Assembly (NCBI RefSeq): GCF_014762705.1
Contig: NZ_JABURL010000098.1
Span: 1 to 41,642, forward strand
Reading direction: 5' to 3'
DNA: 41,642 nt
DNA from: Cyclobacterium sp.
Lineage (GTDB): Bacteria; Bacteroidota; Bacteroidia; Cytophagales; Cyclobacteriaceae
Shown one piece after another: positions 7,151-23,313 of the stretch. The first letter of the stretch is position 1, and each line of letters starts with the position of its first letter. The position numbers were made by a program, and so were the translations under genes. The notes under the pieces were generated by a model, which saw nothing but the letters and a program-made list of their open reading frames with translations, had not been told where the DNA came from and ran no database searches.

Positions 7151-7273
7151 GATGAATGGGAATGAAAAAGCTAGTTGAGTTTTATTGGATTTTTTATATA
7201 TTTAGGGGATTTAACTCCCATGGCCAAAAGGGAAGTAACCGCAACGGCTGGGGTTAGCCAGTAGTTGTGTGCA
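7151..7273 (+). promoter_or_regulatory. Candidate attI-like primary site and leader of the array
   Basis: This segment separates the recombinase stop codon from the first cassette. It has no attC-like palindrome of the kind found between cassettes, yet it ends with the cassette A end sequence GTTGTGTGCA (7264-7273). The bases before the GTT are CCAGTA rather than the ACC seen in most internal sites. A small inverted repeat TAACC/GGTTA (7236-7240/7251-7255) is present. By analogy with integrons, this is where new cassettes would enter. Confidence 0.6.
7175..7204 (+). promoter_or_regulatory. Candidate common promoter (Pc-like) of the cassette array
   Basis: TTG (7175-7177) is followed after 19 nt by TATATTTA (7197-7204), one mismatch from the Bacteroidota -7 element TAnnTTTG with a usual spacing. 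It lies 76 nt upstream of the first cassette gene and points into the array, whose forward genes mostly lack visible promoters. Confidence 0.5.
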
Positions 7274-7279
7274 ATTAAA

Positions 7280-7678
7280 ATGAAACACCAAGTTCAAATA
7301 ATATCGGTCGACCTAATGGACAAGTACGAAGGGACTGTTCACTTTGAGATAAACGGAAATGACTACAAAGCATTTTTCTATGGAGAAGAATACGAGCCTG
7401 GACAAAATGTTGAAGTTGAATTTGACCAATTGGAATCACCGCTTGAATGGGATGTGATTTTTAACGAGAACAAGGACAAAGAATTAAGAATTGAAAAAAC
7501 GGAGAACTCGGAATGGAGTTACTACGGATATGGGAGAATAAAATCAATATCCCCAATAACCGCTGACTTTGGAGACCTTAAACTTGAACTTGGGGATTGG
7601 ACAAACGACCCGAAAGTAGTTGGAGAATACATTTATTGGACAATTGACCGATTAGATATAAGTAAGATAAAAGAATAA
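7280..7678 (+). CDS. Small acidic protein of unknown function (cassette A)
   Basis: 132 aa from the ATG at 7280. An in-frame TTG at 7265 lies inside the cassette end sequence and is an unlikely start. The protein is acidic, with several beta-strand-like segments (KAFFYGEEYEPGQNVEVEFDQ, SYYGYGRIKSI) suggesting a small beta-barrel or OB-like fold; no family is recognised. It has no signal peptide or membrane segment. The coding region starts 7 nt after the cassette boundary and stops 5 nt before the next palindrome, so the cassette holds one gene and almost no other DNA. Transcription probably depends on the upstream promoter at 7175-7204. Confidence 0.75.
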   Translation: MKHQVQIISVDLMDKYEGTVHFEINGNDYKAFFYGEEYEPGQNVEVEFDQLESPLEWDVIFNENKDKELRIEKTENSEWSYYGYGRIKSISPITADFGDLKLELGDWTNDPKVVGEYIYWTIDRLDISKIKE

Positions 7679-7683
7679 AAAAC

Positions 7684-7819
7684 TGCACACAACAACGCAT
7701 ATAGCTTATGGCGGGTGAACGTCTGCCAGCAAGATTTTCGCTCTGTAGCCAGCTTTGGTTTCGGTGGACAGTTAAGTGCTTCGAAACCGCCACAAGCCAT
7801 ATGCAAACCGTTGGCATTA
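7684..7819 (+). repeat. attC-like palindromic site 1 (between cassettes A and B)
   Basis: 136 nt. The left end TGCACACAAC belongs to cassette A; the right end GTTGGCATTA belongs to cassette B. The outer arms pair as CATATAGCTTATGGCGG (from 7698) with CCGCCACAAGCCATATG (ending 7804). The centre is mostly unpaired and contains GGACAGT...TGCTTCGAA (7776-7794), which recurs in other copies. Confidence 0.9.
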
Positions 7820-7831
7820 ATTTAACTAACC

Positions 7832-8476
7832 ATGAAAAAAACTAAAAAACCGAAAAGAAATAACCTTTACACCAAAAACTATTTTTTTGTATTAAGTGTT
7901 ACTGTTCTAATTCTAGGACTAATAGCTTTTTCAGACAACTATTTGTTTGATATTCATCAAGAGAGCAATAGTAACCCCTTTTATGTCATTCACGGATTAA
8001 TAATGTTCTCGTGGTATACAACAATTGTAATTCAAACAAATCACATTCGAAAATTGAATGTCAAAGCTCATAAAAAATTAGGAATCGTTGGCTTTTTCAT
8101 TGCTTGTTTAGTCATCATAAGTATAGCTTATTTAAACTTCATTGATGTTCCCTACTCTGAACTGCCATTTTTCGGAAAAGCCAATCGAATATTCTTTCCT
8201 GTCTTTATTTTACTAATTGGCTTGGCTTATCTAAAAAGAGATAAACCTGAACTACATAAACATTCTATTTTTGTAGCTATTCTTTTAATGATGGAACCTC
8301 TGTTAAGTAGAGTAGGAATGAATACAGGGACAAATGCAGCAGTTGTTGCACCTATCATCTGGCTTGCTTTATGGATATCATTATTCGTTTATGATATCAT
8401 CAGATTAAGAGGATTACATTTTTTAACTTATTCTGGACTTATTTTTTGGTTCGTGGTTTATGCAATTGTATCATAA
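7832..8476 (+). CDS. Multi-pass membrane protein of unknown function (cassette B)
   Basis: 214 aa with about six hydrophobic segments (about residues 18-35, 50-67, 84-104, 125-140, 150-165 and 175-212). A basic N-terminus (KKTKKPKRN) suggests the start faces the cytoplasm. Histidines lie near membrane edges (FYVIHGLIMFSWY, NVKAHKKLGIVGF, ELHKHSIF), a pattern seen in uncharacterised Bacteroidota membrane proteins resembling the DUF2306/cytochrome-like group; haem binding is only a guess. It is the only gene of its cassette, beginning 22 nt after the boundary and ending 5 nt before the next site. Confidence 0.8.
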   Translation: MKKTKKPKRNNLYTKNYFFVLSVTVLILGLIAFSDNYLFDIHQESNSNPFYVIHGLIMFSWYTTIVIQTNHIRKLNVKAHKKLGIVGFFIACLVIISIAYLNFIDVPYSELPFFGKANRIFFPVFILLIGLAYLKRDKPELHKHSIFVAILLMMEPLLSRVGMNTGTNAAVVAPIIWLALWISLFVYDIIRLRGLHFLTYSGLIFWFVVYAIVS

Positions 8477-8481
8477 AAAAC

Positions 8482-8619
8482 TAATGCCAACAATGTATAA
8501 CCGCAATTACGGCGGATTCGACTACGTTCGAATCCACTCGGAATTGCTAATATCTGTGCTAAACCGAAAATTAACGCATATTAACCCGTAACTGACGGTT
8601 ATACGAGACCGTTGGGCGT
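8482..8619 (+). repeat. attC-like palindromic site 2 (between cassettes B and C)
   Basis: 138 nt. The left end TAATGCCAAC pairs with the start of cassette B; the right end GTTGGGCGT is the start of cassette C. Arms TATAACCGCAATTACGG (from 8496) and its near-complement CCGTAACTGACGGTTATA (8586-8603) form the stem, with a secondary hairpin GGATTCGA...TCGAATCC (8513-8534) inside the loop. The right end shows the shared ACCGTTG. Confidence 0.9.
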
Positions 8620-8664
8620 CATGCAAAAGGGACAGTACAACATATCAATCATTGAAATAGAAAA

Positions 8665-11220
8665 ATGAAATCAATGACCACCAGTAAAAAAGAACTTGTT
8701 GATTTCCTTTGGGAATGGGCAGAAAATCATGGGGAATGGAGTAAACTTCTTGTTGACAAGGTCGTAACTACAGAAAGCTCCCTTTCACCCTCTGACAGAG
8801 CAACAATTTTCAATTATTTCCTACAGACTATCAAACTACATACAGGCTTGCCCAGCTTGACGATTACTAAGCCTACATATACACCAACAAGTAAAAGGAT
8901 AGAATTAACTTCACTTTCCAACATTACGGGTGTTAACAGGCTTGCAAAAAATCAGACCTTAAATTTTGCACCCAACATCTCAATCATTTATGGAGAAAAC
9001 GGAACGGGAAAAACAGGCTATGGACGGATATTAAAATCCCTTGGGTTTAGCTATGATAGCAACAACTCTATTTTTTCTAACGTCTTTGGAAGTTCAGAGC
9101 CGAAGTCCGCATTAATCAACTTTGAAGCAAATGGAGTAGCGGACACATTTGCTTGGGATGGAACAAATAGAAATGAAGAATTAGAGAGTATTTCAGTCTT
9201 TAACAACAATTGCGTTCAAATTTCTCTTTCCGACAGACAACTCATTGTTTCCCCAATTGGGTTTCATCTTTTCAACATTATTTCGGGTGAATTAAAAGAG
9301 CTAGAAAAGCTCTTGCAAACAAAAATCGCAAGTCATCCGACTGCATTAGCATGGGCTGAAACTTTGCACGAAGGAACGCCACAACAGATATTTATCAATG
9401 GCTTAAAAAGCACTTCTACAGAGGAAAAGCTAACTGAATTATCTTCCTTCTCATCGGAACAAGAGAAAGAATTAAAAGTCAAAGAAACAGAACTTAACAA
9501 CCTGAATAGACAACTACTGCAAAATGAAATACAGAACTTAACCGCACAGGAAACGGAAATAAACTCACTAGTTGCCAAAATGCAAACGGCTCAATCTCTA
9601 TTATCCCCTAACAATTGGGATAAGCTAATCAAGATAAATGAAGAGCTTGCCGTATTACAAAATCAAGCTAAGAAAGGCATTCAAGAAATAGCAGAGATCA
9701 ATGGGATTGAATTCTATGAAACCAGTGAATTTCAGTTATTCATTCAATCTGCAGAAAACTACATTAAAATTCTCAACAATCCAGAATACCCAAATCAAGA
9801 AGACCTTTGCGTGTATTGCAAGCAACCACTTGAAAAATCCGCTGAGGAATTATTGAGAAGCTACAGAAAACTGCTCAATGACAAGACTCAAGAAAGTATT
9901 GAGCAATTAAAACAACAAAAAGAACAACTGATAAATCAAATATCACAGGTTGACACCAATTTATTGTTGCATCAATCTTCATTCGGCTTGGATAATGACG
10001 AGAGGCCAATTCAACCAAAAGAAATAACTGATTACAACAAAGAGTTAGGTATGTTCAAGACAACTTTTGTTTCTGATAAAATTGTCAAAGGCTCAACCTT
10101 TGATTTCGATTATAATAGGCCATCCGAATTTCTAAAAACCAAAAGCAAAGCAATTAAAACCACACTTGTTCAGAAAAAAGAAGTGTTGTCCAATCTCGCG
10201 GCTAAAGAGGATGAACTTAAAAAGAAAATTGCGGAATTGAAGGACCGCAAGCTTCTTTCATCGAAGCAGGCTGAAGTAAAAACGGCAATTGCAAATCATA
10301 AGATTGTGTCCGTACTAAATTCAAATTATAACAACTTTAGTACTAGCTCCATCAGCCGTAAAACAACAGAAGCAAGAGAAGCATTAGTAAAGCAAAACTT
10401 CAATGACATATTTCAGGACGAACTGAAAGCACTGAGAAAATCTAACATTAAAATAGAGCTGAATTTTGCGACTGACAGAGGGAAGTCAAGGGTTTCACAG
10501 AAGATAGAAAACCATGTATTGACAGACATTTTAAGTGAAGGTGAACAAAAAGCTATTGCGTTGGCAGAGTTTCTAACTGAACTGCAACTTGACAACATAG
10601 AAGCGCCAGTAATTTTTGATGACCCTGTAAACAGCCTTGATCATCGAATAATTGATGAAGTTGCAAAAAGGTTAATCGAGTTATCTAAGCAAAGACAGGT
10701 TATCGTCTTTACTCATAGTATTTTGCTTCTCAATAGCTTCATTCAACAATCTGAGTTAGATACAAACAAACAGGCAGGGGTTGAATTTACTTTTCGCAGT
10801 GTATCAAGCAGTTTCGGGGAAACCGGTATAATAGACGATGTTGAGGAAATTAACTCATACACTTATTACACTAAGAAACTTAACCTTCTTTTGGGAACAA
10901 AACCGAATGGGCAGAGTGAAGAGGAAGTTGCTCGTAAAGGCTATGGACATTTACGTTCCGCTATTGAAGTGGCAGTTGAGGAGAATCTACTCAAAAAGAT
11001 AGTAAAAAGATATGGGAAAGGTGTTGCTTTCCCTTCTTTACTGCGAATTGAGGGTGATAAAATTGATAAGCATAAAGGAAAACTAAACGACATTTACGAG
11101 AAGTGTTGCGTATCCATTGACGGACACAGCAGTCCAGGAGTAATACACACAACTCCAACAATTGACGAGTTGAAAATTGATTATGAGGAGTTCAAGAAAT
11201 TGAGAAAGGAATTTACATAA
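8665..11220 (+). CDS. SMC/Rad50-like ATPase with CxxC hook, RloC/PrrC-like (cassette C)
   Basis: 851 aa. Walker A G110-ENGTGK-T117, a long coiled coil (about 210-600) interrupted by C382-V-Y-C385 at the position of a Rad50/RloC zinc hook, signature LSEGEQ (623-628), Walker B VIFDD (649-653) and a THS H-loop follow in the order of AAA_13/RloC-type ATPases. The C-terminal domain has R764-x-x-x-E768 and H821, consistent with the Arg-Glu-His triad of PrrC/RloC anticodon nucleases, but with different spacing, so nuclease activity is inferred. Such proteins sense phage or DNA damage and cleave tRNA to abort infection. It is the sole gene of its cassette, 46 nt after the boundary. No restriction-modification genes lie beside it, unlike classical PrrC. 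Confidence 0.85.
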   Translation: MKSMTTSKKELVDFLWEWAENHGEWSKLLVDKVVTTESSLSPSDRATIFNYFLQTIKLHTGLPSLTITKPTYTPTSKRIELTSLSNITGVNRLAKNQTLNFAPNISIIYGENGTGKTGYGRILKSLGFSYDSNNSIFSNVFGSSEPKSALINFEANGVADTFAWDGTNRNEELESISVFNNNCVQISLSDRQLIVSPIGFHLFNIISGELKELEKLLQTKIASHPTALAWAETLHEGTPQQIFINGLKSTSTEEKLTELSSFSSEQEKELKVKETELNNLNRQLLQNEIQNLTAQETEINSLVAKMQTAQSLLSPNNWDKLIKINEELAVLQNQAKKGIQEIAEINGIEFYETSEFQLFIQSAENYIKILNNPEYPNQEDLCVYCKQPLEKSAEELLRSYRKLLNDKTQESIEQLKQQKEQLINQISQVDTNLLLHQSSFGLDNDERPIQPKEITDYNKELGMFKTTFVSDKIVKGSTFDFDYNRPSEFLKTKSKAIKTTLVQKKEVLSNLAAKEDELKKKIAELKDRKLLSSKQAEVKTAIANHKIVSVLNSNYNNFSTSSISRKTTEAREALVKQNFNDIFQDELKALRKSNIKIELNFATDRGKSRVSQKIENHVLTDILSEGEQKAIALAEFLTELQLDNIEAPVIFDDPVNSLDHRIIDEVAKRLIELSKQRQVIVFTHSILLLNSFIQQSELDTNKQAGVEFTFRSVSSSFGETGIIDDVEEINSYTYYTKKLNLLLGTKPNGQSEEEVARKGYGHLRSAIEVAVEENLLKKIVKRYGKGVAFPSLLRIEGDKIDKHKGKLNDIYEKCCVSIDGHSSPGVIHTTPTIDELKIDYEEFKKLRKEFT

Positions 11221-11235
11221 AAGAAAAAAGCACGA

Positions 11236-11370
11236 ACGCCCAACAATGGGTATAAAACATAGGGCGGATGGCGGTTTCCGCAAGTTTCAGGTTCTTAACA
11301 AGCTATGTCTCGTTGGACAAGTACACTGCTCCGAAATGCCCTACGTTTCATACCCGATACCGTTGTGCTT
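11236..11370 (+). repeat. attC-like palindromic site 3 (between cassettes C and D)
   Basis: 135 nt. The left end ACGCCCAAC matches the start of cassette C; the right end GTTGTGCTT starts cassette D. The stem is formed by GGGTATAAAACATAGGGC (11248-11265) and GCCCTACGTTTCATACCC (11338-11355). The shared loop motif appears as GGACAAGTACACTGCTCCGA (11315-11334). Confidence 0.9.
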
Positions 11371-11389
11371 CATGTAAAAGAACCTACGA

Positions 11390-13306
11390 ATGAAAATTGA
11401 ATCATTAAGAATAGAGAACTTTCGAGCCTTTAAAGACGAGACAATAGAATTTGATGATTACACCTCTTTTGTAGGTCCAAATGGAGTTGGTAAATCGACA
11501 GTTTTTCATGCTCTTAACTTATTCTTTAGACAGAGTAAAGACAGTCAAACCGATTTGCTAAAGCTTTCCGCAAATGACTTTCACCATGCAAATACAAGTC
11601 AACCTATTAGAATTACAGTTACTTTTTCTTCATTATCAGACCAAGCTAAAGAAGACTTAGCTGATTATGTAAGACAAGAGAAGTTGATAGTAACAGCTGT
11701 TGCTGTTTATGACACTATCACAGAGAAGGCGGATGTAAAGCAGTTTGGAAACAGACTAGGAATGGAAGAATTCCGAAAATTTTTTGAAGCTGAAAAAAAC
11801 GGAGCAAAAGCAGCCGAGTTAAAAGAAATATTCAAATCATTTAGGGAAAAATACGAAGACATAACCAGCGCTAATTCAAAGGGCGATATGATTTCTGCTT
11901 TACACGAATACGAAGGCAAAAACCCTGAGAGTTGCGTTTTAATACCGAGTGAAGACCAATTCTACGGAGTTTCACGGGGTGTAAATAAATTGGAGTCTCA
12001 CATTCAATGGATTTTTGTTCCTGCGATAAAAGATGCTACAGAAGAAAGTGAAGAATCTACTAGATCAGCTTTAGGTCAGTTACTAGCTAGGACTGTTCGC
12101 TCTCAAGTATCTTTTGATGAGAATATCAGAGATTTAAGAAATAACGTACGTGCAGAGTATCAAAAACTCTTAGACGCAGAACAAAAAACTCTAGATGACA
12201 TTTCAGGTTCTCTACAAAATAGATTATCTAATTGGGCACACCCAAATATAACCGCTTCAATTCAATGGAAACAAGACCCAGATAAATCAGTAAAAATTGA
12301 AGAGCCTCTAGCAGCGCTTAAAGTTGGTGAAAGGGGATTTGAAGGTGAATTATCAAGATTTGGTCACGGTTTGCAACGCTCGTATATGCTTGCGCTACTT
12401 CAGGAGTTATCTATGTTTGACCCAGAAAATGTGCCAACATTATTAATGGGAATTGAAGAACCAGAGTTATTTCAGCACCCACCGCAGGCAAGGTATTTAG
12501 CAGAAACTCTACTAGAGCTATCTGAATCAAATTCTCAAATTATAATTTGTACACATAGTCCGCTGTTTATTCCAGGTGATAACTTTGATAAAATTAGGCT
12601 TGCAAGAGAAGAAGGAGAACCCAGCGAAACAAAAATTAAAAGATTAACCTATGAGTCTTTAGCAGCAGAATTACATGCTGTTGGTGAAAAGCTTGTAACT
12701 GAAAGCGGAATGGTGGCCAAACTTTATCCTTCGCTAAATCCAGTTGTGAATGAAATGTTCTTCTGTAAAAAACTAATTTTAGTTGAAGGTCATGAAGATA
12801 TTGCATACATAAGCTCTTACTTGCTCCTAACAGGTGGTATGACCGAGTTCAGACGCCATGGTTGTCACATTGTTCCCGTAGAAGGGAAAAACAAGTTAAT
12901 CAAGCCGTTAGCAATGGCAAAACTTCTTGACATACCAACTTTAGTTGTCTACGATAGTGATACTGATAAAACAACGGAACATGAGGTTCCAAAACATAAA
13001 AAAGACAACAAAGCAATTCTCTCATTAAAAAACTATGCAGATGTTGACGAGTGGCCTGCAAGTACGGTAATTAAAGATGACTTGACCGCATGGCAAACCA
13101 ACTTGACAAATGAAATTATTAATGAACTCGGACAGGATTTAAAAAAATATGAAGACGAAGCAGCTGCATTTTATGGAAATTCAGGTGGATTAAAAAAGAA
13201 TCCTCTAGCGATTGCAAAAACTTTAGAGTTAGCATGGAACGAAGGAATCAAATCTCAAATTCTAATAGACTTAACTGCAAGAATTATAGAATTTGTCAAT
13301 AAATAA
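11390..13306 (+). CDS. OLD-family ATP-dependent nuclease, ATPase plus TOPRIM (cassette D, gene 1)
   Basis: 638 aa. The N-terminal ABC-type ATPase has Walker A G29-PNGVGKS, a GHGLQRS segment in the signature region, Walker B LLMGIEEPE and H-loop CTHSP. The C-terminal TOPRIM domain shows LILVEG with E466 and YDSD (D522, D524), the metal-binding pattern of OLD endonucleases. The family cleaves DNA, and relatives (P2 OLD, GajA of Gabija) act in anti-phage defence. No UvrD-like GajB partner is present. Instead, the next gene, 9 nt downstream in the same cassette, encodes an HD plus Hsp90-type ATPase protein, so the two probably form one system. The start lies 20 nt after the cassette boundary. Confidence 0.9.
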   Translation: MKIESLRIENFRAFKDETIEFDDYTSFVGPNGVGKSTVFHALNLFFRQSKDSQTDLLKLSANDFHHANTSQPIRITVTFSSLSDQAKEDLADYVRQEKLIVTAVAVYDTITEKADVKQFGNRLGMEEFRKFFEAEKNGAKAAELKEIFKSFREKYEDITSANSKGDMISALHEYEGKNPESCVLIPSEDQFYGVSRGVNKLESHIQWIFVPAIKDATEESEESTRSALGQLLARTVRSQVSFDENIRDLRNNVRAEYQKLLDAEQKTLDDISGSLQNRLSNWAHPNITASIQWKQDPDKSVKIEEPLAALKVGERGFEGELSRFGHGLQRSYMLALLQELSMFDPENVPTLLMGIEEPELFQHPPQARYLAETLLELSESNSQIIICTHSPLFIPGDNFDKIRLAREEGEPSETKIKRLTYESLAAELHAVGEKLVTESGMVAKLYPSLNPVVNEMFFCKKLILVEGHEDIAYISSYLLLTGGMTEFRRHGCHIVPVEGKNKLIKPLAMAKLLDIPTLVVYDSDTDKTTEHEVPKHKKDNKAILSLKNYADVDEWPASTVIKDDLTAWQTNLTNEIINELGQDLKKYEDEAAAFYGNSGGLKKNPLAIAKTLELAWNEGIKSQILIDLTARIIEFVNK

Positions 13307-13315
13307 AATATTAAA

Positions 13316-15733
13316 ATGAACGATGACTATAAGGACGAGTTTTTATTAAGGCTGAAAAAAAGTGAGTTATATAAAGCTCTTAAGGAGAATTGTTCTGATA
13401 AAGACGCTAATGTAATACCGCTTGTTGAAGATTGTACCTCTTATGCATTTCAAAGGACCAAGACCATTGTGAGACACATGGGGGAATTTACTCTTCATGA
13501 TGGCGACCATCTTTTTAGAGTTCTAAACTTAATGGAGCGATTGATTCCTAAGGAAACTATTGATGAACTCACTAGTCCTGAATTATTATTGCTAATAATC
13601 AGTGCCTTTTTTCATGACATTGGAATGGCTCCTGATGAAAAAGAAGTTTTAGCGTGGAAAAAAGTTTGGGATATTGAACCGATAATTGATGATAATGAGC
13701 AAAACACATTCAATGATTTCAAAAGGTTTTACAACTCTCGACCGGAAGATGAGAAAAGATTGAAAGATTTGATATCTAAAGGTAATATTTCACAGGCAGA
13801 CACTATAAAATCATATCTCATTACAGAATACATCCGTCAGACACATACTGATAGGGCAAGAGATATAATTGAGCAAGATTGGTCGGAGAAAATCAAATTT
13901 AGAGATACTGACTTAACCGTTGAATTAGCTCAGATATGTTACAGTCACAATGAAGACGCATTATCTCTATTGGATTTAGACAAAAACTTACTTTGCGGTT
14001 CAGGAGTTTATGCTTGTTTACCGCTAGTCGGGGTGATTCTAAGGCTAGCCGATATTCTAGATTTCGATGGGAAAAGGACTCCTTCAGTTCTGTTCTCGCA
14101 TTTGTATGTTAGAAATCCTATTTCAATTATTGAATGGAACAAACATAGAGCAATAGAAGCTTGGGACATTAGTCCTGACTTAATTCAATTTAGTGCAAAA
14201 TGCACGCATCCAGTTATTGAGTCATCGATACATGAATTCTGTTCTATGATTGATCATGAACTAAGCTTGGCAAATAACATTATTTCTACTCTAAACGAAT
14301 TTCACACAGCAAAAGATAGAAACTTACAAATCAAGTTACCTCTCAAGGTAAATCGGGAAAAAATAAGAACCAAAACAGACATTAAAAACAGACCAGTTTA
14401 CATCTATAAAGACACTAAATTCAATCTAAGCAAAACCCAAGTCATTGAAATATTGATGGGTACAAAGCTTTATGGAAATCCTGAAGTCGCATTGAGAGAA
14501 CTTTTGCAAAACTCAATTGATGCTTGTTTACTTCGAAAGGCGCAGGAAGACAAATGGGGTAATTTGTATCAACCTAAAGTTCTTGTTAAGTATTACACTG
14601 AAAATGAAGAAGATGTTCTTGAGGTAATCGACAACGGGACAGGAATGGATGAGTATATTATAGATAATTATTATTCTAAAATTGGCTCCTCATTTTATAA
14701 GTCCAAAGATTTTTACAGTCTGAAAGCTGAAACTAATGCTGATTTTTCACCTACCTCTAGATTTGGTATAGGCATTCTCTCATCTTTTATGATTTCGGAT
14801 GTTTTAATTGTAGACACTAAAAGAGTGTATGGTCCTCACAAATCAAGCGACCCAATGAACATTACAGTTGAAGGTCAGGAAAGTATATTTTGGATAAAGT
14901 CCGGAACACGTGAAACACCAGGAACATCAACTAGATTAATCCTGCGAAAAAGTCATAATCCTTGGGATAGAATGACCGAGAATGAGTTTATTGAGAATGT
15001 TGAAAATGTTATCCCAAATCCACCTTTTGAAATCAGTATTGAAACCCAATCTCATAAAAAGAAAAGGGATGAAAATAGTTTTAAGGAAATAACATCATAC
15101 TCACTTAAGGACTACACTTGGCAAGAAAATGAGAATATTAAATTTATAGACATTCCTATTGACAGAAAGGATATAGGATTGGTAGGGTCTGCTACTGTTG
15201 CTATTTTAGAAAGCAAGAATAGACCAGTTGAAAGAATTGAATTAAACTCCAGAGATATTGAAATAGAAGGAGAGTCTTACACCTTAGAAAGAGAACTTAG
15301 AATTGATGTTAACTCTATAAAAGAATCATCAAAGACAATCACAATTAGTGATGATGGAGACATTCGAACAGATGACTCGTCCAGTAAATTGGCAAGTTCG
15401 AATTCAAAAATTTCTTTACATGGTATTGAAATTCCTTCAAGTCTTTTTCCAGAAATATGGAGAATGAAAAACAATCAAGTGAAAATAAATTGGCCATTTC
15501 CGCTGATAATCGTAATTGATGTTTGCGGCAATCGAGATTTAGACTTGAACTCTCCAAGAACAGAAATAATAATAAGTGAGAAATGGACTGATTTTGAAGA
15601 GCAATTGGCACGTATTGTTTGTCAACATATTAAGGACTCCGTTGAAATAGAATATTGGAATAACCTTTTTGAAATATTCAATAGCTCAAACAGTAGCGAA
15701 AATTTCAAAAGAGCTCTAAATGAATTGAAATAA
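13316..15733 (+). CDS. HD-domain plus Hsp90-like (GHKL) ATPase protein (cassette D, gene 2)
   Basis: 805 aa. The N-terminal part has an HD phosphohydrolase-like pattern: H61-DGDH65 and H100-D101 in FFHDIGM. A GHKL/Hsp90-type ATPase domain follows: N-box E395-LLQNSIDA, D439-N-G-T-G443 and SRFGIG (R482-G486). Residues about 570-805 are unassigned. Together with a distant resemblance to predicted conflict-system HD/Hsp90 proteins, this suggests an ATP-driven sensor or switch. HD domains often hydrolyse nucleotides; whether this one does is unknown. It is translated from the same cassette as the OLD nuclease with a 9-nt gap, so a joint defence function is a reasonable inference. No signal peptide or membrane segment. 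Confidence 0.8.
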   Translation: MNDDYKDEFLLRLKKSELYKALKENCSDKDANVIPLVEDCTSYAFQRTKTIVRHMGEFTLHDGDHLFRVLNLMERLIPKETIDELTSPELLLLIISAFFHDIGMAPDEKEVLAWKKVWDIEPIIDDNEQNTFNDFKRFYNSRPEDEKRLKDLISKGNISQADTIKSYLITEYIRQTHTDRARDIIEQDWSEKIKFRDTDLTVELAQICYSHNEDALSLLDLDKNLLCGSGVYACLPLVGVILRLADILDFDGKRTPSVLFSHLYVRNPISIIEWNKHRAIEAWDISPDLIQFSAKCTHPVIESSIHEFCSMIDHELSLANNIISTLNEFHTAKDRNLQIKLPLKVNREKIRTKTDIKNRPVYIYKDTKFNLSKTQVIEILMGTKLYGNPEVALRELLQNSIDACLLRKAQEDKWGNLYQPKVLVKYYTENEEDVLEVIDNGTGMDEYIIDNYYSKIGSSFYKSKDFYSLKAETNADFSPTSRFGIGILSSFMISDVLIVDTKRVYGPHKSSDPMNITVEGQESIFWIKSGTRETPGTSTRLILRKSHNPWDRMTENEFIENVENVIPNPPFEISIETQSHKKKRDENSFKEITSYSLKDYTWQENENIKFIDIPIDRKDIGLVGSATVAILESKNRPVERIELNSRDIEIEGESYTLERELRIDVNSIKESSKTITISDDGDIRTDDSSSKLASSNSKISLHGIEIPSSLFPEIWRMKNNQVKINWPFPLIIVIDVCGNRDLDLNSPRTEIIISEKWTDFEEQLARIVCQHIKDSVEIEYWNNLFEIFNSSNSSENFKRALNELK

Positions 15734-15740
15734 AACACGA

Positions 15741-15805
15741 AAGCACAACAACACCTATACGCAATGCCCTTCGGGACACTGCGCATAGCCAAACCGTTAT
15801 ATGCC
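15741..15805 (+). repeat. Shortened attC-like palindromic site 4 (between cassettes D and E)
   Basis: Only 65 nt. The left end AAGCACAAC matches the start of cassette D; the right end GTTATATGCC starts cassette E. The outer stem is kept: CCTATACGCAATGCCC (15753-15768) pairs with GGGACACTGCGCATAG (15773-15788), closed by a tiny TTC loop. The roughly 70-nt centre of the other copies is missing. Confidence 0.9.
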
Positions 15806-15827
15806 ATTTTAGGACGACCCAACAACA

Positions 15828-16397: not shown

Positions 16398-16401
16398 ACT
16401 T

Positions 16402-16446
16402 CTTGATTTTTGTCAAGAGCAAGGATTGATTTTGTGCAGACCTTTG
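16402..16446 (+). promoter_or_regulatory. Crp/Fnr-type operator and promoter of the SRPBCC gene
   Basis: The palindrome CTTGATTTTTGTCAAG (16402-16417) is followed 21 nt later by GACCTTTG (16439-16446), one base off TAnnTTTG. The operator would be centred about 41 nt upstream of transcription start, the class II Crp activator position. The same operator and the same 21-nt gap recur at 23578-23622. Confidence 0.7.
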
Positions 16447-16473
16447 CATCGTTAACTAAAAACAATAACGACA

Positions 16474-16986
16474 ATGTTCACAAAACCAATTTTACTAATC
16501 GCAATTGGCTTGACAATCTCAGCAGGTTCATTTGCACAAAGCAATTCAAAAATGAAAAGTATCAACAACAACGCACCAGTAAAGTGCAGCAAGACAATCA
16601 CTATCAATGCAAGTAGTGAAAAAGTATGGAAAGTTATGACCAACATTGACAATTGGGCAAGATGGCAGACAGACATAACCAAAGCCAAATTGAATGGAGA
16701 ACTAAAACCAGAAACAACATTTGACTGGAAAACAGGAGGAGTAAAAATCCATTCGACACTGCATACCGTTGAACCATTTAAGAATTTCGGTTGGACAGGA
16801 AAAACATTTGGTATGTGTGCAATACATAACTGGACTTTAACAGAAAACAACGGTCAAACAAAAGTTTCGGTTGACGAAAGTATGGAAGGTTTTTTTGCTA
16901 AACTTTTAAAAAAATTATTCAACAAGAACTTAGAAAAAGGAATGCAAAACTGGCTTGACTTACTAAAACAAGAATGCGAAAAATAA
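16474..16986 (+). CDS. Exported SRPBCC-domain protein (cassette E, gene 2)
   Basis: 170 aa. A signal peptide (about 1-22, ending SAGSFAQ) precedes an SRPBCC/polyketide-cyclase-like fold: KTITINASSEKVWKVMTNID, WARWQTDITKAKL, and a C-terminal long helix (GMQNWLDLLKQEC). Such domains bind hydrophobic ligands; the ligand here is unknown. The gene lies 76 nt after the Crp gene and has its own operator and promoter, so cassette E is a regulator-target pair. It ends 18 nt before the next attC-like site. Confidence 0.8.
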   Translation: MFTKPILLIAIGLTISAGSFAQSNSKMKSINNNAPVKCSKTITINASSEKVWKVMTNIDNWARWQTDITKAKLNGELKPETTFDWKTGGVKIHSTLHTVEPFKNFGWTGKTFGMCAIHNWTLTENNGQTKVSVDESMEGFFAKLLKKLFNKNLEKGMQNWLDLLKQECEK

Positions 16987-17004
16987 GGTGACAGAAAGAA
17001 AAAC

Positions 17005-17141
17005 GGCATATAACAGCACCTACCCAAAAGGCGGGGTTTCGTGTTTCGCAGACACATTTGTGCAAGCCGAAAGTTCAGTGCTCCGAATGAAGTTTAGTGG
17101 TAAAAATCCCGCCCTTTGGGTAGCTGCAAAACGTTGGCATT
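17005..17141 (+). repeat. attC-like palindromic site 5 (between cassettes E and F)
   Basis: 137 nt. The left end GGCATATAAC matches the start of cassette E; the right end GTTGGCATT starts cassette F. The stem arms are CTACCCAAAAGGCGGGGTTT (17020-17039) and AAATCCCGCCCTTTGGGTAG (17104-17123). The loop motif appears as TTCAGTGCTCCGAA (17074-17087). The right end reads AACGTTG instead of ACCGTTG. Confidence 0.9.
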
Positions 17142-17159
17142 CATTTATAAATAATAGAC

Positions 17160-18896
17160 ATGAATATTAAATTCACAGGAACATACAAATCAATTACTGA
17201 TTTTGAATGGACTGATGTTCCAATGTTTTCCGTGATAACTGGACCAAACGGAACTGGAAAAACACAACTCTTAGAATTGTTATACAATACTGTAATTAAC
17301 AAGAGGGGAACGACAGAAAGAGTGCAGATTGAAAATGAAACTTTAAGAGAAGATGAAATAACCTTTTTAAAAGGTGAATGGCAGCTAAATAATACTGGTG
17401 ACATTAATCTTTCTAGTATCCAGCAACAAATAGGCAATCACTACAATAAATTTGTTAAGAATCAGGTAAATAGAGATAATGAACAACAGGTAAAGCTCTT
17501 CTATGCTTTTCAGGAAATTCAAAGAAAGTCAGGAAAGGAAAATCGAAATGATGTTTCACGTGAGGAATTTATTGACCTCTTTCCTGAAATATTAATTGAG
17601 CAAGAACCTCAACTCAGCCAAAAAATTGCTGAAGTTTTTTATAATTACCGGTTATCGGAAATTGAATTACAAGCCAAACAAAAATCGGAAGTTGAAATTA
17701 TCAATGAAATTGGTGAAAAACCTTGGTTAGTTCTGAAAGATATTCTTAAGGAATCTAAATTACCATTCTCATTTAATAATCCGTCTGAACTTGGATTTAG
17801 GGATAGTTTCCAGCTCAAGGCTATTAACGAAATTAGTGGAGATCCTGTTAATTTCAATGATCTATCTTCTGGTGAAAAAGTTCTTATCTCTTTAGTTTTT
17901 TATCTATACAATTCTCAAGAGAAAAATGTTTTTCCAAAGATTCTTTTAATGGATGAACCAGATGCCCACTTGCATCCAACTATGTCGCAACAGTTCATAA
18001 ATGTTGTGAAAAATGTACTTGTTGACAAATTTGGGGTTCGTGTAATAATGACAACTCACTCACCTTCAACTGTAATTTTAACTCCTGACGAGTCACTTTT
18101 TGAAATGTCACGAGAACATCCTCGAATAAAATTATCGAATTCAAAAAATCATACTGTATCACTACTCACATCTGGCCTTGTCTATGTTGGAGAAGGCACA
18201 AAATATATGCTTGTTGAGGATAAAGATGATGCTAATTTTTACTCTTACTTGTTCGACAGTCTAACGAAAGACGATTCAATTGATGGTAGTATCCCCCTTG
18301 TTTTTATACCTGCCTCAACAAGCAATAAATCAGGTGGAAAAGATGTCGTGCAGGATTGGGTTAATAAATTACAAGACTCCGGATTGGAGCAAATTATTCA
18401 AGGAGTCATAGATAAGGATAGTGGCAATGAAACATCTGATGGGGTCCATTTATTGGGTAGATACAGTATAGAAAATTACTTGGTTGACCCAATTATTATT
18501 TATGCTGCATTGATTGATAAGGAAAAGCATAATGAGGTAATTGACGTTGGTTTAGCTGTAGGGGAAGAATACAAATTAAAATCTATGTCAAATGAAGAGT
18601 TGCAAAAAGTGTGTGATGCAATCTTCAAGAAGACAGTACCATTGCTAAAGAAATATTTCAGCGATTTTAATGAAGTTGAGGAAATTGTAACCCAAAAAAT
18701 TAAGTTTACTAATGGAATAGAATTGGATTATCCTGTTTGGTTAATTAACCGAAGAGGAAAAACATTGCTACATCAGGTATACAATGAGCTTTTCACAAGC
18801 CCCGTGATCAATTTCAAAACACTATTTAAGGCCTTGAAGAAAGTTAATTTTATTCCAGAAGACATCATTTACCTGTTAGAGAATTTAAGATCATAA
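17160..18896 (+). CDS. ABC-type ATPase fused to a DUF4435/TOPRIM-like domain, PARIS-like (cassette F)
   Basis: 578 aa. Walker A G28-PNGTGK-T35, signature LSSGE (235-239), Walker B LLMDEPD (D265, E266) and H-loop TTHSP mark an ABC/AAA_21-type ATPase. The C-terminal part carries LVEDKDD (E353), GGKDVV, GVIDKD (D418, D420) and R434-YSIENYL, the pattern of DUF4435, a TOPRIM-like nuclease domain. The PARIS defence system pairs an ATPase (AriA) with a DUF4435 protein (AriB), so this may be a fused form. An OLD-like nuclease is the alternative. It is the single gene of cassette F, 18 nt after the boundary and 9 nt before the next site. Confidence 0.85.
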   Translation: MNIKFTGTYKSITDFEWTDVPMFSVITGPNGTGKTQLLELLYNTVINKRGTTERVQIENETLREDEITFLKGEWQLNNTGDINLSSIQQQIGNHYNKFVKNQVNRDNEQQVKLFYAFQEIQRKSGKENRNDVSREEFIDLFPEILIEQEPQLSQKIAEVFYNYRLSEIELQAKQKSEVEIINEIGEKPWLVLKDILKESKLPFSFNNPSELGFRDSFQLKAINEISGDPVNFNDLSSGEKVLISLVFYLYNSQEKNVFPKILLMDEPDAHLHPTMSQQFINVVKNVLVDKFGVRVIMTTHSPSTVILTPDESLFEMSREHPRIKLSNSKNHTVSLLTSGLVYVGEGTKYMLVEDKDDANFYSYLFDSLTKDDSIDGSIPLVFIPASTSNKSGGKDVVQDWVNKLQDSGLEQIIQGVIDKDSGNETSDGVHLLGRYSIENYLVDPIIIYAALIDKEKHNEVIDVGLAVGEEYKLKSMSNEELQKVCDAIFKKTVPLLKKYFSDFNEVEEIVTQKIKFTNGIELDYPVWLINRRGKTLLHQVYNELFTSPVINFKTLFKALKKVNFIPEDIIYLLENLRS

Positions 18897-18905
18897 GGAA
18901 AACGA

Positions 18906-19041
18906 AATGCCAACATTGTATAAGCGTAATGCTGGCTGAACTGCTAAAATTGAGCATTTTTGTTCCTAAGAAACTTTGCGGTGGACGGACAGTGAATCGC
19001 TCTGGAACCCGCAATACGCTTATACTTGACCGTTGTGCAAC
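18906..19041 (+). repeat. attC-like palindromic site 6 (between cassettes F and G)
   Basis: 136 nt. The left end AATGCCAAC matches the start of cassette F; the right end GTTGTGCAAC starts cassette G. The stem is TATAAGCGTAATGC (18919-18932) with GCAATACGCTTATA (19011-19024). The loop motif appears as GGACAGTGAATCGCTCTGGAA (18995-19015). Confidence 0.9.
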
Positions 19042-19160
19042 ATTTGACTCATAATCATTATTTAAACTATTTAACGATTATTTTTTAGAAATATTTACCA
19101 CATTTTATTATTAATAGTTTTGCTTATATGAGTCATTTATAGTGTCTCTATTTTTCTTAG

Positions 19161-19195
19161 AAAAAAAAAGGCAAATACAAAAGGTATCTGCCTTT
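19161..19195 (-). terminator. Terminator of the monooxygenase gene
   Basis: On the minus strand a stem AAAGGCA-g-ATAC (mirrored at 19184-19195 and 19167-19178; 11 of 12 pairs) is followed by a run of T residues (19161-19169). It lies just beyond the stop codon at 19213. Confidence 0.8.
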
Positions 19196-19212
19196 AAGGG
19201 AAAAGATTTTTT

Positions 19213-19626
19213 TTAATGTGTATTAAAGTTTGTCATTCTATTCACATTCATTTCCATAGTTGTGAAACCTTCGATAGCATCAAACCAATCTTGCACGTAA
19301 GTTGCTTGCTGATGGTTTTCAAAAGCAGCTTCATCAGCAAAAACTTCATAAAACAATACTAATCCAGGTGCTGTTTCTCCTTGATGTGCTTCAAAAATCA
19401 AACATCTGGGTTCATTTTTTCTGATTTTATCCATCATTAATTTTGTGGCTTTCATAACTTTTTGCTCACTACCTGCTTTTATTTTTGTCCACGCTATAAT
19501 AGTTACAGCATTTTTAGGAATTGAAAAATGACTTGATTTATTGCTCGGTATTTTTATGTCAATCTGTTGTGCATTACCTATTAAAGAGAATAATGCCATT
19601 GTTATTGTTATTAAAAATGTTTTCAT
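19213..19626 (-). CDS. Exported antibiotic-biosynthesis-monooxygenase-like (YgiN-like) protein (cassette G)
   Basis: 137 aa. A signal peptide (about 1-19, ending IGNAQ) precedes a ferredoxin-like ABM domain: VTIIAWTKIKAGSEQKVMKATKLMMDKIR, a central IFEAHQGETAPGLVLFYEVFADEAAFENHQQATYV and a C-terminal amphipathic part. This matches the dimeric alpha-beta barrel of quinol monooxygenases such as YgiN. In E. coli, ygiN accompanies mdaB; an MdaB-like gene is also in this cassette. An export signal is unusual for the family. It lies 128 nt downstream of the cyclase gene, which has its own terminator, so it may have a separate promoter. No promoter was identified for it. Confidence 0.8.
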   Translation of the reverse strand: MKTFLITITMALFSLIGNAQQIDIKIPSNKSSHFSIPKNAVTIIAWTKIKAGSEQKVMKATKLMMDKIRKNEPRCLIFEAHQGETAPGLVLFYEVFADEAAFENHQQATYVQDWFDAIEGFTTMEMNVNRMTNFNTH

Positions 19627-19699
19627 TGTATATAATATTTTTATTAATCATTTTACTGTTACTTGTCGAATAAAATTTGTTTTCTGTTATATTCGATTT

Positions 19700-19743
19700 T
19701 AAAAAAAAGCTGTACATCTGATATCTATATAAATGTACAGCTT
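19700..19743 (-). terminator. Terminator of the cyclase gene
   Basis: A perfect 11-bp stem AAGCTGTACAT/ATGTACAGCTT (19733-19743 and 19707-19717) is followed on the minus strand by eight T residues, 12 nt beyond the cyclase stop codon. Confidence 0.9.
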
Positions 19744-19754
19744 GTTAATTATTG

Positions 19755-20696
19755 TTATCTTATTCCTACCGGATTAATTTGAACTTGAGTTGACCCTTCG
19801 TAAAGTGGGTGACCAAGTATAAAAAGAAACTCAAAAGCCTTATCAGCTACCAGCTCATCAACAAGTATATTCTCTAAAACTTGCACACCAAATTCTGTAG
19901 CCATCATTTGATTTACAGGAAAAGAAAGATTAGCGTTTTCGTGTGGAACAGCTTCAAAAGACCAATTATCTGCTCCAACCGCAACAACACCTTTTTCTCC
20001 AAGATAACGAGCAGCTTCTGTACCTATACCGGCACCCCCTGCAAGATAACGTTCATTATCTACTCCCATAAGTTTTGTCCATCCTGTATAGAATAATACA
20101 ACATCTCCTTTACGAATTTCTGTACCTTGTTTTTTAGCCACTTTTTCAATGTCTTTCACCGAGAATACTGTACCTTCCTTAACAATATCTTGATTATAAT
20201 AAGAGCGCATATCTAATACCACACCACGTGCTACAATAGGCGGTAGCTTTTCCAATCCTAATTTTTTCACTCCTCTTACACTAAGAAAATCTTCTACTTT
20301 ATGTCCGTTATAATGTACATTATCTCGACCATAATGAGAAAGCCCATTTATTTGAGAACCTACACCCGTCCAACCTATTAATTGGTCATCTACATATGTA
20401 AATTTGTTGGAACCTTCTGCTTTAGTTTCAGGTTGTAGTGTTTCAATATGAAAATATCTATGACGAAATGCGGGTGTTTTTTCGTTAACCACCATTCCCA
20501 AGCGATATACTTTACCATTTTTAACAAGTTTCATTGCATTTAATACAGACTCTTGTGTTATTAGGTTTAATGCCCCTATTTCATCATCTGGTCCATAAGG
20601 GGACATTGGCACTTCTTGTGCGTAAACATTTATGAAGCCTATAGTTAATGCTATGGCAACAATACCATTTCTTAATTTTTGTTTTAAACTTTTCAT
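19755..20696 (-). CDS. Exported cyclase-family (kynurenine formamidase/isatin hydrolase-like) protein (cassette G)
   Basis: 313 aa. A signal peptide (about 1-26, ending NVYA) is followed by the cyclase-family fold (PF04199-like): GPDDEIGALNLITQESVLNAM, then QINGLSHYGRDNVHYNG, where the H of LSHYG is the likely metal ligand region, and RGVVLDMRSY, GDVVLFYTGW. The strict HxGTHxDxxxH metal motif of KynB is not present; the shape is that of the longer cyclase subfamily with a modified motif. Members hydrolyse cyclic amides or lactones such as isatin; the substrate here is unknown. A LysR-type operator and a TACTTTTG promoter box lie upstream at 20811-20856. Confidence 0.82.
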   Translation of the reverse strand: MKSLKQKLRNGIVAIALTIGFINVYAQEVPMSPYGPDDEIGALNLITQESVLNAMKLVKNGKVYRLGMVVNEKTPAFRHRYFHIETLQPETKAEGSNKFTYVDDQLIGWTGVGSQINGLSHYGRDNVHYNGHKVEDFLSVRGVKKLGLEKLPPIVARGVVLDMRSYYNQDIVKEGTVFSVKDIEKVAKKQGTEIRKGDVVLFYTGWTKLMGVDNERYLAGGAGIGTEAARYLGEKGVVAVGADNWSFEAVPHENANLSFPVNQMMATEFGVQVLENILVDELVADKAFEFLFILGHPLYEGSTQVQINPVGIR

Positions 20697-20810
20697 CTTT
20701 AAAATTTTATAATTATTAATACTCTAATTTAGAATCTATTAAAAGCTAAAAAAATGGGTTGCTGCAACATAATATATTTAACCATTTATAGTTTTATTGA
20801 TTCCTTGGTA

Positions 20811-20856
20811 CAAAAGTATGTTGAATAGTTGTATTATAAAAATAATGTAATTTATA
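20811..20856 (-). promoter_or_regulatory. LysR-type operator copy 2 with -7 box of the cyclase gene
   Basis: On the minus strand the -7 box is TACTTTTG (20811-20818). The 31-nt segment 20826-20856 matches the segment at 22207-22237 at 28 of 31 positions. In both, it begins exactly 7 nt upstream of a minus-strand TAnnTTTG box. Confidence 0.8.
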
Positions 20857-20934
20857 TATGTCTATTAATTATTTAATAGATAAAAATGCTTTATCATACG
20901 AGATTTTTCAATCTAATTTCAAAATTTGAACTAC

Positions 20935-20965
20935 AAAAAAAAAGCACATACATTTTGTACGTGCT
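20935..20965 (-). terminator. Terminator of the MdaB-TMEM175 operon
   Basis: The stem AGCACGTAC/GTATGTGCT (20957-20965 with 20943-20951, 8 of 9 matches, loop ATTTT reversed) is followed on the minus strand by a T run. It lies 28 nt past the TMEM175 stop codon. Confidence 0.8.
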
Positions 20966-20992
20966 CTTTAGATTTAGTTTTGTTTTTATCTA

Positions 20993-21571
20993 TTAAATAT
21001 TACTTACCACATTTTCTACTTTTTTACTAGGAATAAACCATATAAACAGTATAATTACATATATTAATAATGCAATTAACGGAAAGAAAAAGCTAACTCC
21101 AATACCCAAAATATATAACAGTAAGGTTATGTAATTCTTAAATTTGTTGTAAAGAATTTCACTTATACAATCATCATTTTTATGATGTGCAATAATTGCT
21201 TTTTCTAATATAAAATAGGAAATGGTTTTCATAAGTAAAATAAAACCGTAAAACACCATCGGAATATCTTTGCTATAATCTTCGCCCACCCAAGCTGTTG
21301 CAAACGGTACTATCGACAACCAAAATAATTGATGATGATTTGCCCACAATATTTTGCTGTTAACACTTTTTGAAATTTGCAACAGATGATGATGATTATT
21401 CCAATGTACTACAATTAGTATAAAGCTAATGGTGTAAATACCAAATATTGGCAGTAAATTTATTAAAGACTGAAAATCAGCATTTTCAGGCACTTTAAAC
21501 TCTAATACCATAATGGTTATTATAATAGCAAGAACACCGTCCGTAAATGCTTCTAATCTATTTTTATTCAT
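20993..21571 (-). CDS. TMEM175-family (DUF1211) membrane protein, putative potassium channel (cassette G)
   Basis: 192 aa. The first helix carries the family signature RLEAFTDGVLAIIITIMVLEF (F-[ST]-D-G pattern, about residues 5-25). Further hydrophobic segments (about 38-58, 80-97, 108-125, 145-165, 165-187) give roughly six transmembrane helices. Bacterial TMEM175 proteins are potassium channels lacking the classical selectivity filter; some assort with stress genes. A histidine cluster (HWNNHHHLL) follows the second helix, as is common in the family. The start overlaps the end of the MdaB-like gene by 8 nt, so they are translationally coupled in one operon. Confidence 0.88.
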   Translation of the reverse strand: MNKNRLEAFTDGVLAIIITIMVLEFKVPENADFQSLINLLPIFGIYTISFILIVVHWNNHHHLLQISKSVNSKILWANHHQLFWLSIVPFATAWVGEDYSKDIPMVFYGFILLMKTISYFILEKAIIAHHKNDDCISEILYNKFKNYITLLLYILGIGVSFFFPLIALLIYVIILFIWFIPSKKVENVVSNI

Positions 21572-22169
21572 AGTTCAAAGCAAATATGTTTTTAGTTAAA
21601 AAAGCACTGTAATTATTTAATTCAAAAGGAACATCTGCATTTTTTTCCATATCGTGAAAATGATGTGTTGCTAATAATTCCATTCCTGTAAAAGCATTCA
21701 TTCTGTGAAACCCAAACATAACACCTTCATCTACACTTTTTTGATTAAAAAATTCATTTTCTAAAGTAAATGCGGTTTTAGGTGCATTCCAACTTGTAGT
21801 AAGTATATATTTTTTTCCGTGCATTAAACCACCTGTTCCGTAATTGATGTTTGGATTTTTTCTACTTCTTCCATCATTTACATAAATTCCATTTTGATGA
21901 CCTTCCGTAAAAACTTCATCTATATATTTTTTAAATCCAAAAGGAATTTGAAACCACCAAATTGGAGTGTGATAAATCACTAGATCTGCCCACTTAAATT
22001 TTTCTACTTCTTCTTGTGGGTTATAGTCTTCTCCTACTTGGGTCGATTTCACTTCATAATCCTCTAATGACTCAAAAAATGAAATCGTAGTATTGAAAAG
22101 TGTTTCGTTAAATCTTCCACCAGAATGTGCAAATGGATGACTTCCATTAATTATAAATATATTTTTCAT
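21564..22169 (-). CDS. MdaB-like NAD(P)H quinone reductase, flavodoxin fold (cassette G)
   Basis: 201 aa. The N-terminus IFIINGSHPFAHSGGRFN is the flavin-phosphate-binding loop of NAD(P)H quinone oxidoreductases, followed by ADLVIYHTPIWWFQIPFGFKKYIDEVF, a characteristic MdaB/KefF segment, and YGTGGLMHGKKYILTTSWNAP. The length and these motifs fit MdaB (modulator of drug activity B), which reduces quinones by two electrons using FAD. It is cytoplasmic. It is the first gene of a two-gene operon with the TMEM175-like channel. It is divergent from the LysR gene across 99 nt that contain a LysR-type operator, so it is probably the regulator's main target. Confidence 0.87.
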   Translation of the reverse strand: MKNIFIINGSHPFAHSGGRFNETLFNTTISFFESLEDYEVKSTQVGEDYNPQEEVEKFKWADLVIYHTPIWWFQIPFGFKKYIDEVFTEGHQNGIYVNDGRSRKNPNINYGTGGLMHGKKYILTTSWNAPKTAFTLENEFFNQKSVDEGVMFGFHRMNAFTGMELLATHHFHDMEKNADVPFELNNYSAFLTKNIFALNYE

Positions 22170-22191
22170 TTGTCTATTATTTAATATTTGA

Positions 22192-22243
22192 CAAAATTAA
22201 AGCACTTAGTTGTATTGTAAAAATAATATAATTCATACCTTTG
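22192..22243. promoter_or_regulatory. Divergent mdaB-like/lysR promoters with LysR-type operator copy 1
   Basis: Minus strand: TAATTTTG box (22192-22199) for the MdaB operon. Plus strand: TACCTTTG box (22236-22243) with TTG 18 nt upstream (22215-22217) for LysR. The 31-nt operator 22207-22237 lies between them and contains the imperfect dyad TTGTATT-N8-AATATAA. It is repeated before the cyclase gene. Confidence 0.8.
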
Positions 22244-22268
22244 CATTAAAATATTAATAATATGAATT

Positions 22269-23195
22269 ATGGTCAGTTTAGAATGGTATCGAACGTTTAA
22301 AGAAATTTACGAAAACGGGACATTGACAAAGGCTTCCGTAGCTTTGTATTCATCACAGCCAGGTGTAAGCGTACATTTGAATGCTTTAGAAGCCTATGTT
22401 GGTAAAAAATTATTTGAGCGAACCTCTAGAAAAATGATTCCGACCGAAGAAGGAAAAGCACTATACAATTTTATTTTAAGCAGCATTAAACAACTTGAAA
22501 AGGCGGAGCAGCATTTTAAAAAAACATCAAAAGATATGGTTCCTTCAATAAGTATTGGAATGTGTACCGAAACATTTCAAACTATTTTAGAACCGGAAAT
22601 TTCCAATCTTAATTTTAATCTTGTAGCTAGATTTGGAACTAATCAAGATTTAATAAAAGATTTAAATAATGGTATTCTCGACCTTATCATTACACCAAAA
22701 GTTGATAACAGCACAAATTCTCTTGTTGAATATGAAGATTTCACAAAAGAAAATATTGTTTTAATTGCAGGTAATCAAAGTGATTTGGAAGAAATAAATA
22801 AACTGATAAAAAACAAGGAATTTTCGTTGTTAGAAAAAACACTAAAAAATAAAACTTGGTACAGTGCCTCCAACGAAATGGAGCATTTTAATAGGTTTTG
22901 GTATGAAAATTTCAATAAAAGACCCGATTTTAAACCTAATTACATACTTCCTAATATTGGTTCAATTATAAGATGTGTTGAAAACAATAAAGGATTTGCT
23001 ATTGTTCCAGATTTTTTGGTCAATAAATCAATCGAATTAAATAAAATACATTTAGTTTGGAAAGGTAAAAAAGATGTTTCTAATACCTTATACTTCGCAA
23101 CTAGAAGCGACCTTCTATTTAAAAAAGAAATTGACATTATAAAGGAGGTTTTTCAAAGAAAGATGAATATAAAAACGTTGCACAACAATGTATAA
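22269..23195 (+). CDS. LysR-family transcriptional regulator (cassette G)
   Basis: 308 aa. The N-terminal winged helix-turn-helix is clear: FKEIYENGTLTKASVALYSSQPGVSVHLNALEAYVGKKLFERTSRKMIPTEEG begins at about residue 10. Residues about 90-300 form the periplasmic-binding-protein-like effector domain. An out-of-frame ATG at 22262 is ignored; 22269 gives the full family start. It is divergent from the MdaB-like gene, as is usual for LysR regulators and targets. Its final codons (L-H-N-N-V-stop) are read from attC-like site 7, so cassette recombination could alter the C-terminus. It probably controls the MdaB-TMEM175 operon, the cyclase and itself. Confidence 0.9.
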   Translation: MVSLEWYRTFKEIYENGTLTKASVALYSSQPGVSVHLNALEAYVGKKLFERTSRKMIPTEEGKALYNFILSSIKQLEKAEQHFKKTSKDMVPSISIGMCTETFQTILEPEISNLNFNLVARFGTNQDLIKDLNNGILDLIITPKVDNSTNSLVEYEDFTKENIVLIAGNQSDLEEINKLIKNKEFSLLEKTLKNKTWYSASNEMEHFNRFWYENFNKRPDFKPNYILPNIGSIIRCVENNKGFAIVPDFLVNKSIELNKIHLVWKGKKDVSNTLYFATRSDLLFKKEIDIIKEVFQRKMNIKTLHNNV

Positions 23196-23313
23196 AAATA
23201 ATAGCCGGTATAGTAGTAAATTCAAGGATTGTAGCTCGATTCAGCTTTCTTGTAACTTGACAGGAAAGTGCCACGCAGTCGGCTACTATTCTTATACGTA
23301 ACCGTTGTGCAAA
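23177..23313 (+). repeat. attC-like palindromic site 7 (between cassettes G and H)
   Basis: 137 nt. The left end GTTGCACAAC matches the start of cassette G; the right end GTTGTGCAAA starts cassette H. The stem is TATAAAAATAATAGCCGG (from 23191) with GTCGGCTACTATTCTTATA (ending 23296). The centre is more diverged (GACAGGAAAGTGC, 23259-23271). The left part overlaps the end of the LysR coding region. Confidence 0.88.

Follow-up and report, generated by a model that had tools for sequence, protein, structure and literature searches.

We describe a row of gene cassettes in a stretch of 41,642 nucleotides from Cyclobacterium sp. (contig NZ_JABURL010000098.1; this whole stretch is called the window below), which stands behind a tyrosine recombinase gene and in which each of the seven complete cassettes, A to G, begins with 9 to 10 bases complementary to the left end of the palindrome that closes it. 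We put at about 85% the probability that this is an integron-like system of Bacteroidota whose integrase lacks the I2 insertion of standard integron integrases (IntI) and carries a tail of HARP-like repeats. By its tested features it is not an IntI integron, I2 being absent; by its anatomy it is integron-like. The features of the window are as follows.

5711 to 7150, plus strand: tyrosine recombinase of 479 amino acids, in the same orientation as the cassettes
7235 to 7276, plus strand: attI-like insertion site; its imperfect inverted repeat ends in GGTTAGCCAGTA and is followed by GTT at 7264
7264 to 7809, plus strand: cassette A; start box 7264-7273, own left box (R'') 7684-7693, exact run of 10
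7810 to 8610, plus strand: cassette B; start box 7810-7819, own R'' 8482-8491, exact run of 10
8611 to 11361, plus strand: cassette C, PDC-S06-like gene; start box 8611-8619, own R'' 11236-11244, exact run of 9
11362 to 15795, plus strand: cassette D, OLD/Gabija-like ATPase gene and HD-CE/HATPase gene; start box 11362-11370, own R'' 15741-15749, exact run of 9
15796 to 17132, plus strand: cassette E, cNMP-binding regulator and SRPBCC-type gene; start box 15796-15805, own R'' 17005-17014, exact run of 10
17133 to 19031, plus strand: cassette F, AAA ATPase/Toprim-like gene; start box 17133-17141, own R'' 18906-18914, exact run of 9
19032 to 23303, plus strand: cassette G, with one plus-strand and four minus-strand genes; start box 19032-19041, own R'' 23177-23186, exact run of 10
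23304 to 23504, plus strand: beginning of an eighth cassette, GTTGTGCAAA, in which position 11 is A; its reading frame is short and disrupted
7684 to 7819, minus strand: attC-like palindrome P1, bottom strand folding better
8482 to 8620, minus strand: attC-like palindrome P2
11235 to 11371, minus strand: attC-like palindrome P3
15740 to 15805, minus strand: attC-like palindrome P4, the short one
17005 to 17142, minus strand: attC-like palindrome P5
18905 to 19041, minus strand: attC-like palindrome P6
23177 to 23313, minus strand: attC-like palindrome P7

Cassette Starts Match Their Own Palindromes

Each cassette start was compared base by base with the reverse complement of its own palindrome's left end. 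The original prediction had claimed agreement in all seven complete cassettes and had held it to be beyond chance, and both claims are borne out: the exact runs listed above sum to 67, a score reached by only 1 of 5040 permutations, which is the true assignment. Among the 42 pairings of a start with a palindrome other than its own, two give 9 bases (through a box common to B and F) and the others 3 to 7. In integrons, the box complementary to the cassette start comprises 7 bases. The further claim that the two ends of one palindrome are unlike each other is correct for P1 to P6 (3 to 5 matching bases) and fails at P7 (9 bases). No palindrome was found within the window after the start of the eighth cassette.

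The Rule Recurs at Other Recombinase Loci

We scanned 94 loci encoding relatives of the recombinase, namely the window itself, 80 loci among the matches listed, and 13 stretches of its own and related genomes; stretch L126, the fourteenth, lacks a recombinase and is not among the 94. The site detector uses the inner palindrome stem alone, outer boxes excluded; the sites of the window score 18.7 to 23.7 and the best of four Markov shuffles of the window 16.0, with a threshold of 16.5. The scan yielded 170 sites. On the strand of the recombinase, 154 lie downstream of it and 5 upstream; on the opposite strand, 3 lie downstream and 8 upstream. A downstream same-strand site is present in 42 of the 94 loci. 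Adjacent downstream sites delimit 112 candidate cassettes (6 of them in the window), and 95 of these match their own left end over at least 8 bases, mostly over 9 (35) or 10 (56). As controls, a palindrome's two ends match each other this well in 1 of 112, and other pairings within a locus do so in 17 of 534. Compared in this way across many genomes, cassette ends mostly keep the rule. In 9 of the 17 failing pairs a weaker site carrying the matching box lies between, so these failures are due to a missed intervening site. Stretches fetched later for shared cassettes keep the rule in 21 of 29 adjacent pairs (5 of 6 in L171 and 16 of 19 in L174). Altogether 38 loci, including the window, hold an array, taken as at least one confirmed cassette or a first cassette, and the longest reading frame is on the site's strand in 81 of the 95 rule-keeping cassettes. 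A Bacillota locus (L098, 3397-4686) has long hairpins upstream of its recombinase, on the opposite strand, with starts that break the rule.

The arrays start at an insertion site that is similar to the right half of the palindromes just before GTT. In two genomes of the same genus, G067 and G195, the recombinase is 92% and 83% identical and the left flank 91% and 84% identical to those of the window, and the likeness reaches TA-GTT before the sequences diverge (BLAST alignments extend 10 to 30 bases beyond GTT). Their first cassettes follow the own-start rule over 10 bases, with left boxes 2313 and 659 bases downstream. Another genome of the genus (G123) retains the recombinase end and the insertion site (80%) and has a C-like gene as its first cassette, with a rule match of 9 bases and a palindrome core 91% like that of P6. 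Tracing back from the first palindrome, we found a first-cassette start with 8 to 10 matching bases in 35 of the 43 loci having a downstream site, and no start with a matching box in the other 8. The start is 27 to 152 bases past the recombinase stop in 26 of the 35; in the other 9 it is 233 to 1991 bases past it, and an earlier site was possibly missed.

Pieces of the array's DNA occur in 168 of 295 family genomes and, among the matches listed, are mostly palindrome cores. Cassette D is 92 to 95% identical in G314, with homology that stops at 15794, beside the GTT at 15796, after which the sequences differ. G067 has a core 95.7% identical to that of P1 along 116 bases (L118, reverse strand, 19880-19996), with different outer boxes. 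Cores and outer boxes seem to be exchanged separately, which may bear on the birth of cassettes. The window's own genome contains a second array (L127, G000:C34) behind a recombinase 36% identical and with a different insertion site; its first cassette keeps the rule over 10 bases, and its second is a homolog of cassette E (80%). The original prediction also proposed an integron-like origin, in which a circle with a complete site would open at GTT, and this finds support in the 95 of 112 and 21 of 29 adjacent pairs, in the traced first cassettes, in four same-genus loci alike up to GTT and different beyond it, and in the shared cassette that ends at the border. It did not anticipate that the recombinase departs from standard integron integrases, or that the run stops at a conserved wobble.

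A Conserved Mispair Sets the Two Strands Apart

The run of complementarity stops after 9 to 10 bases at position 11, where the top strand has a conserved A/C mispair and the bottom strand a G.T pair. Over the 95 rule-keeping cassettes, identity between the start and the reverse-complemented left end is 100% at positions 1 to 8, 97% at position 9, 63% at 10, 1% at 11, 85% at 12, and 91% at 13, and since identity resumes at positions 12 and 13, bottom-strand pairing extends over about 13 to 14 positions with one wobble. Position 11 of the cassette start is A in 94 of the 95, and the base set against this A is G at the same place in 78 and one place later in 13 (91 in total). Three end patterns recur: 10 matches (54 cassettes), a mismatch at position 10 (20 cassettes, A/T in 20 of 20), and an extra base (13 cassettes, T in 13 of 13). 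The inner stem is marked as well: 118 of 124 sites have A as the 15th position after AAC, and 123 of 124 have C before GTT; the position-15 A is opposite C in 6 of the 7 window sites, the arms having been read by eye. The folded attC sites of integrons have two extrahelical bases on one arm; the sites described here conserve G.T pairs, and 13 of the 95 have one T more in the outer arm. The bottom strand is predicted to fold better in 90 of 95 cases in the circle form, in 80 of 95 in the integrated form, and in 92 of 94 when loops are removed and only arms are kept, as it is in 7 of 7 integrated sites of the window. The bottom strand and the extrahelical bases of integron sites are discussed in PMC3053210.

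An Xer-Type Core with HARP-Like N-Terminal Repeats

Residues 205 to 479 of the window recombinase form an Xer-type core without the IntI insertion, and residues 1 to 195 form two tandem HARP-like repeats. The protein scores 242.1 bits against the XerA-type family model NF040815, over the cut-off of 220, and 206.7 bits against the integron integrase model TIGR02249, under the cut-off of 265; its nearest fold is that of archaeal Xer. The I2 region has 22 residues, compared with 65 in IntI4. No insertion of I2 size is present in any of the 36 array recombinases measured (spacing 62 to 67), the sole true IntI in the set, L117, having a spacing of 104. All 36 carry an N-terminal extension and have at least 345 amino acids, Xer proteins without the extension having about 300. 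In the tree, eight IntI rows form a branch of their own with support of 100/100 and without any array recombinase, IntI being narrowly sampled and the deep order not resolved.

As judged from profile comparisons, the N-terminal extension is a repeat related to the DNA-structure-binding domain HARP. The HARP profile (PF07443) matches 10 of 34 N termini at E values up to 1, a single one of them above the cut-off (L075, 29.4 bits; gathering score 25), and profile comparison by hhalign connects HARP to the window type. With the HARP domain of SMARCAL1 (4o66) the repeat shares its sequence pattern, a weak fold match, and an arrangement of one or more N-terminal copies; HARP is fused to an SNF2 ATPase there, whereas the repeat is fused to a tyrosine recombinase here. 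The DNA structures to which SMARCAL1 binds include forks, single/double-strand junctions, and bubbles (PMC4035279). L075 is a Spirochaetota contig with the same layout and a first cassette that matches over 10 bases, and with it the range of the system may extend past Bacteroidota.

Immediately upstream of the recombinase gene is a near-perfect inverted repeat (5613-5668, 28-base arms, 86%). Its center is similar to the GTATAA/TTATAC sequence in the stems of the palindromes, so the recombinase or a regulator might bind there.

Cassette Contents and the End of the Array

Anti-phage-defense-like genes are present in three of the seven window cassettes, in a scan that left out the genes of cassette G: the likenesses are to PADLOC PDC-S06 in C, to OLD/Gabija/AriA in D, and to AriA/Toprim/PtuA in F. 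Cassette G, 4.3 kilobases long, includes a LysR regulator, has four genes on the minus strand, and may be a fusion of cassettes whose intervening sites were lost. Past the last palindrome, positions 23304-23640 contain a disrupted reading frame together with a fragment that resembles the last part of the regulator in cassette E (71% over 49 bases); the region reads as the decayed end of the array.

Proposed Mechanism and Alternatives

In the mechanism we propose, the bottom strand would become exposed as single strand; in the circle, the two outer boxes would pair as an outer stem, closing the hairpin site; and the recombinase would exchange one strand between the hairpin and the insertion site, with the common GTT as the crossover or its border. 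The anatomy, the pairing, the strand bias, and the cassette borders are seen in the sequence itself; circles and strand exchange are inferred from them as most likely, and that the repeats would read the hairpin in place of the I2 helix of IntI we give about even odds. We are equally divided on the broader proposal that widespread "HARP-integrons" of Bacteroidota represent another mode of recombining cassettes as single strands, one in which an I2-less Xer-type recombinase would use its HARP-like repeats to read the hairpin and its G.T pairs, as IntI does by its I2 helix.

Sedentary chromosomal integrons (IntI, attI, attC) are alike in having an integrase beside the insertion site, a co-oriented row of cassettes, a hairpin site at each cassette end, a favored bottom strand, and a cassette start that pairs with the left end of the site closing that cassette. 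Unlike them, the system described here has a recombinase that lacks the IntI insertion, bears a HARP-like N-terminal extension, and reads in the cassette direction, and it conserves fixed G.T pairs, with an outer pairing of about 13 to 14 that includes a wobble. Archaeal XerA and bacterial XerC and XerD share the catalytic core and are the nearest solved structures, whereas core-only relatives in the set have neither the N-terminal extension nor cassette rows. The integron of Salinibacter ruber M1 was reportedly detected with a tool that seeks standard integron integrases. That complete integron also has a Bacteroidetes host and, as reported, an integron layout, and complete standard integrons are described as seldom reported in Bacteroidota (PMC9024848).

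Several observations weigh against our reading. Eight of the 17 failing pairs remain without explanation, neither L169 nor L170 keeps the rule in any of its adjacent pairs (0 of 2 each), and the E-like cassette in the genome's own second array has no recognizable end site. Eight of the 95 cassettes match none of the three end patterns, and one pair in L121 has A facing A at position 11. Among recombinases without a seen array, 30 of 50 are also long (short contigs may hide arrays), so the N-terminal extension alone is not diagnostic of arrays. The PF07443 search gave no match to the N terminus of the window recombinase, and the fold matches are weak. Finally, I2 is held to be necessary for single-strand recombination (PMC7790495, PMC8138268).

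The best surviving alternative, which we consider unlikely, is ordinary double-strand Xer-like recombination at a dif-like site made of the palindrome right half and the cassette start, the hairpin being used otherwise, for example, in ending transcription. The XerA-like family assignment, the archaeal Xer fold, the lack of I2, and the resemblance of the insertion site to the palindrome right half just before GTT all accord with it, yet under it the left box need not track the cassette start, as it does in 95 of 112 candidates, and strand-biased pairing (92 of 94; A/C at position 11) is not needed. It is very improbable that the palindromes are plain integron sites on which a standard IntI from another part of the genome acts: the attC-like layout, with AAC on the left, C-GTT on the right, and a favored bottom strand, would fit, but the integron integrase model finds no match in the window's own genome at an E value of 1e-40 and none over the cut-off in 60 genomes of the class, and the arrays stand behind an I2-less recombinase. 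Least probable of all is hairpin-primed gene conversion between ends, or a mobile palindrome landing beside genes, without site-specific movement of cassettes, which fits cores common to unrelated cassettes (as with P1 in G067) but leaves the site behind the recombinase and the one-sided arrays unexplained, and copying should make a palindrome's own ends match, when it is ends one gene apart that do.

The IntI-specific additional domain has been treated as defining for integron integrases (PMC9668308); the insertion is incompletely conserved in its subgroup yet essential for integron function (PMC8138268); and integrases are thought to have gained single-strand recombination via the I2 helix, which Xer proteins lack (PMC7790495). 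Since integron-like arrays stand behind recombinases without I2, the necessity of I2 becomes directly testable. If the proposed second mode is real, I2 would be dispensable for integron chemistry, and cassette systems would either be older than IntI or have arisen twice. The arrays also point to a platform for gene exchange that is likely to be overlooked by searches for standard integrases.

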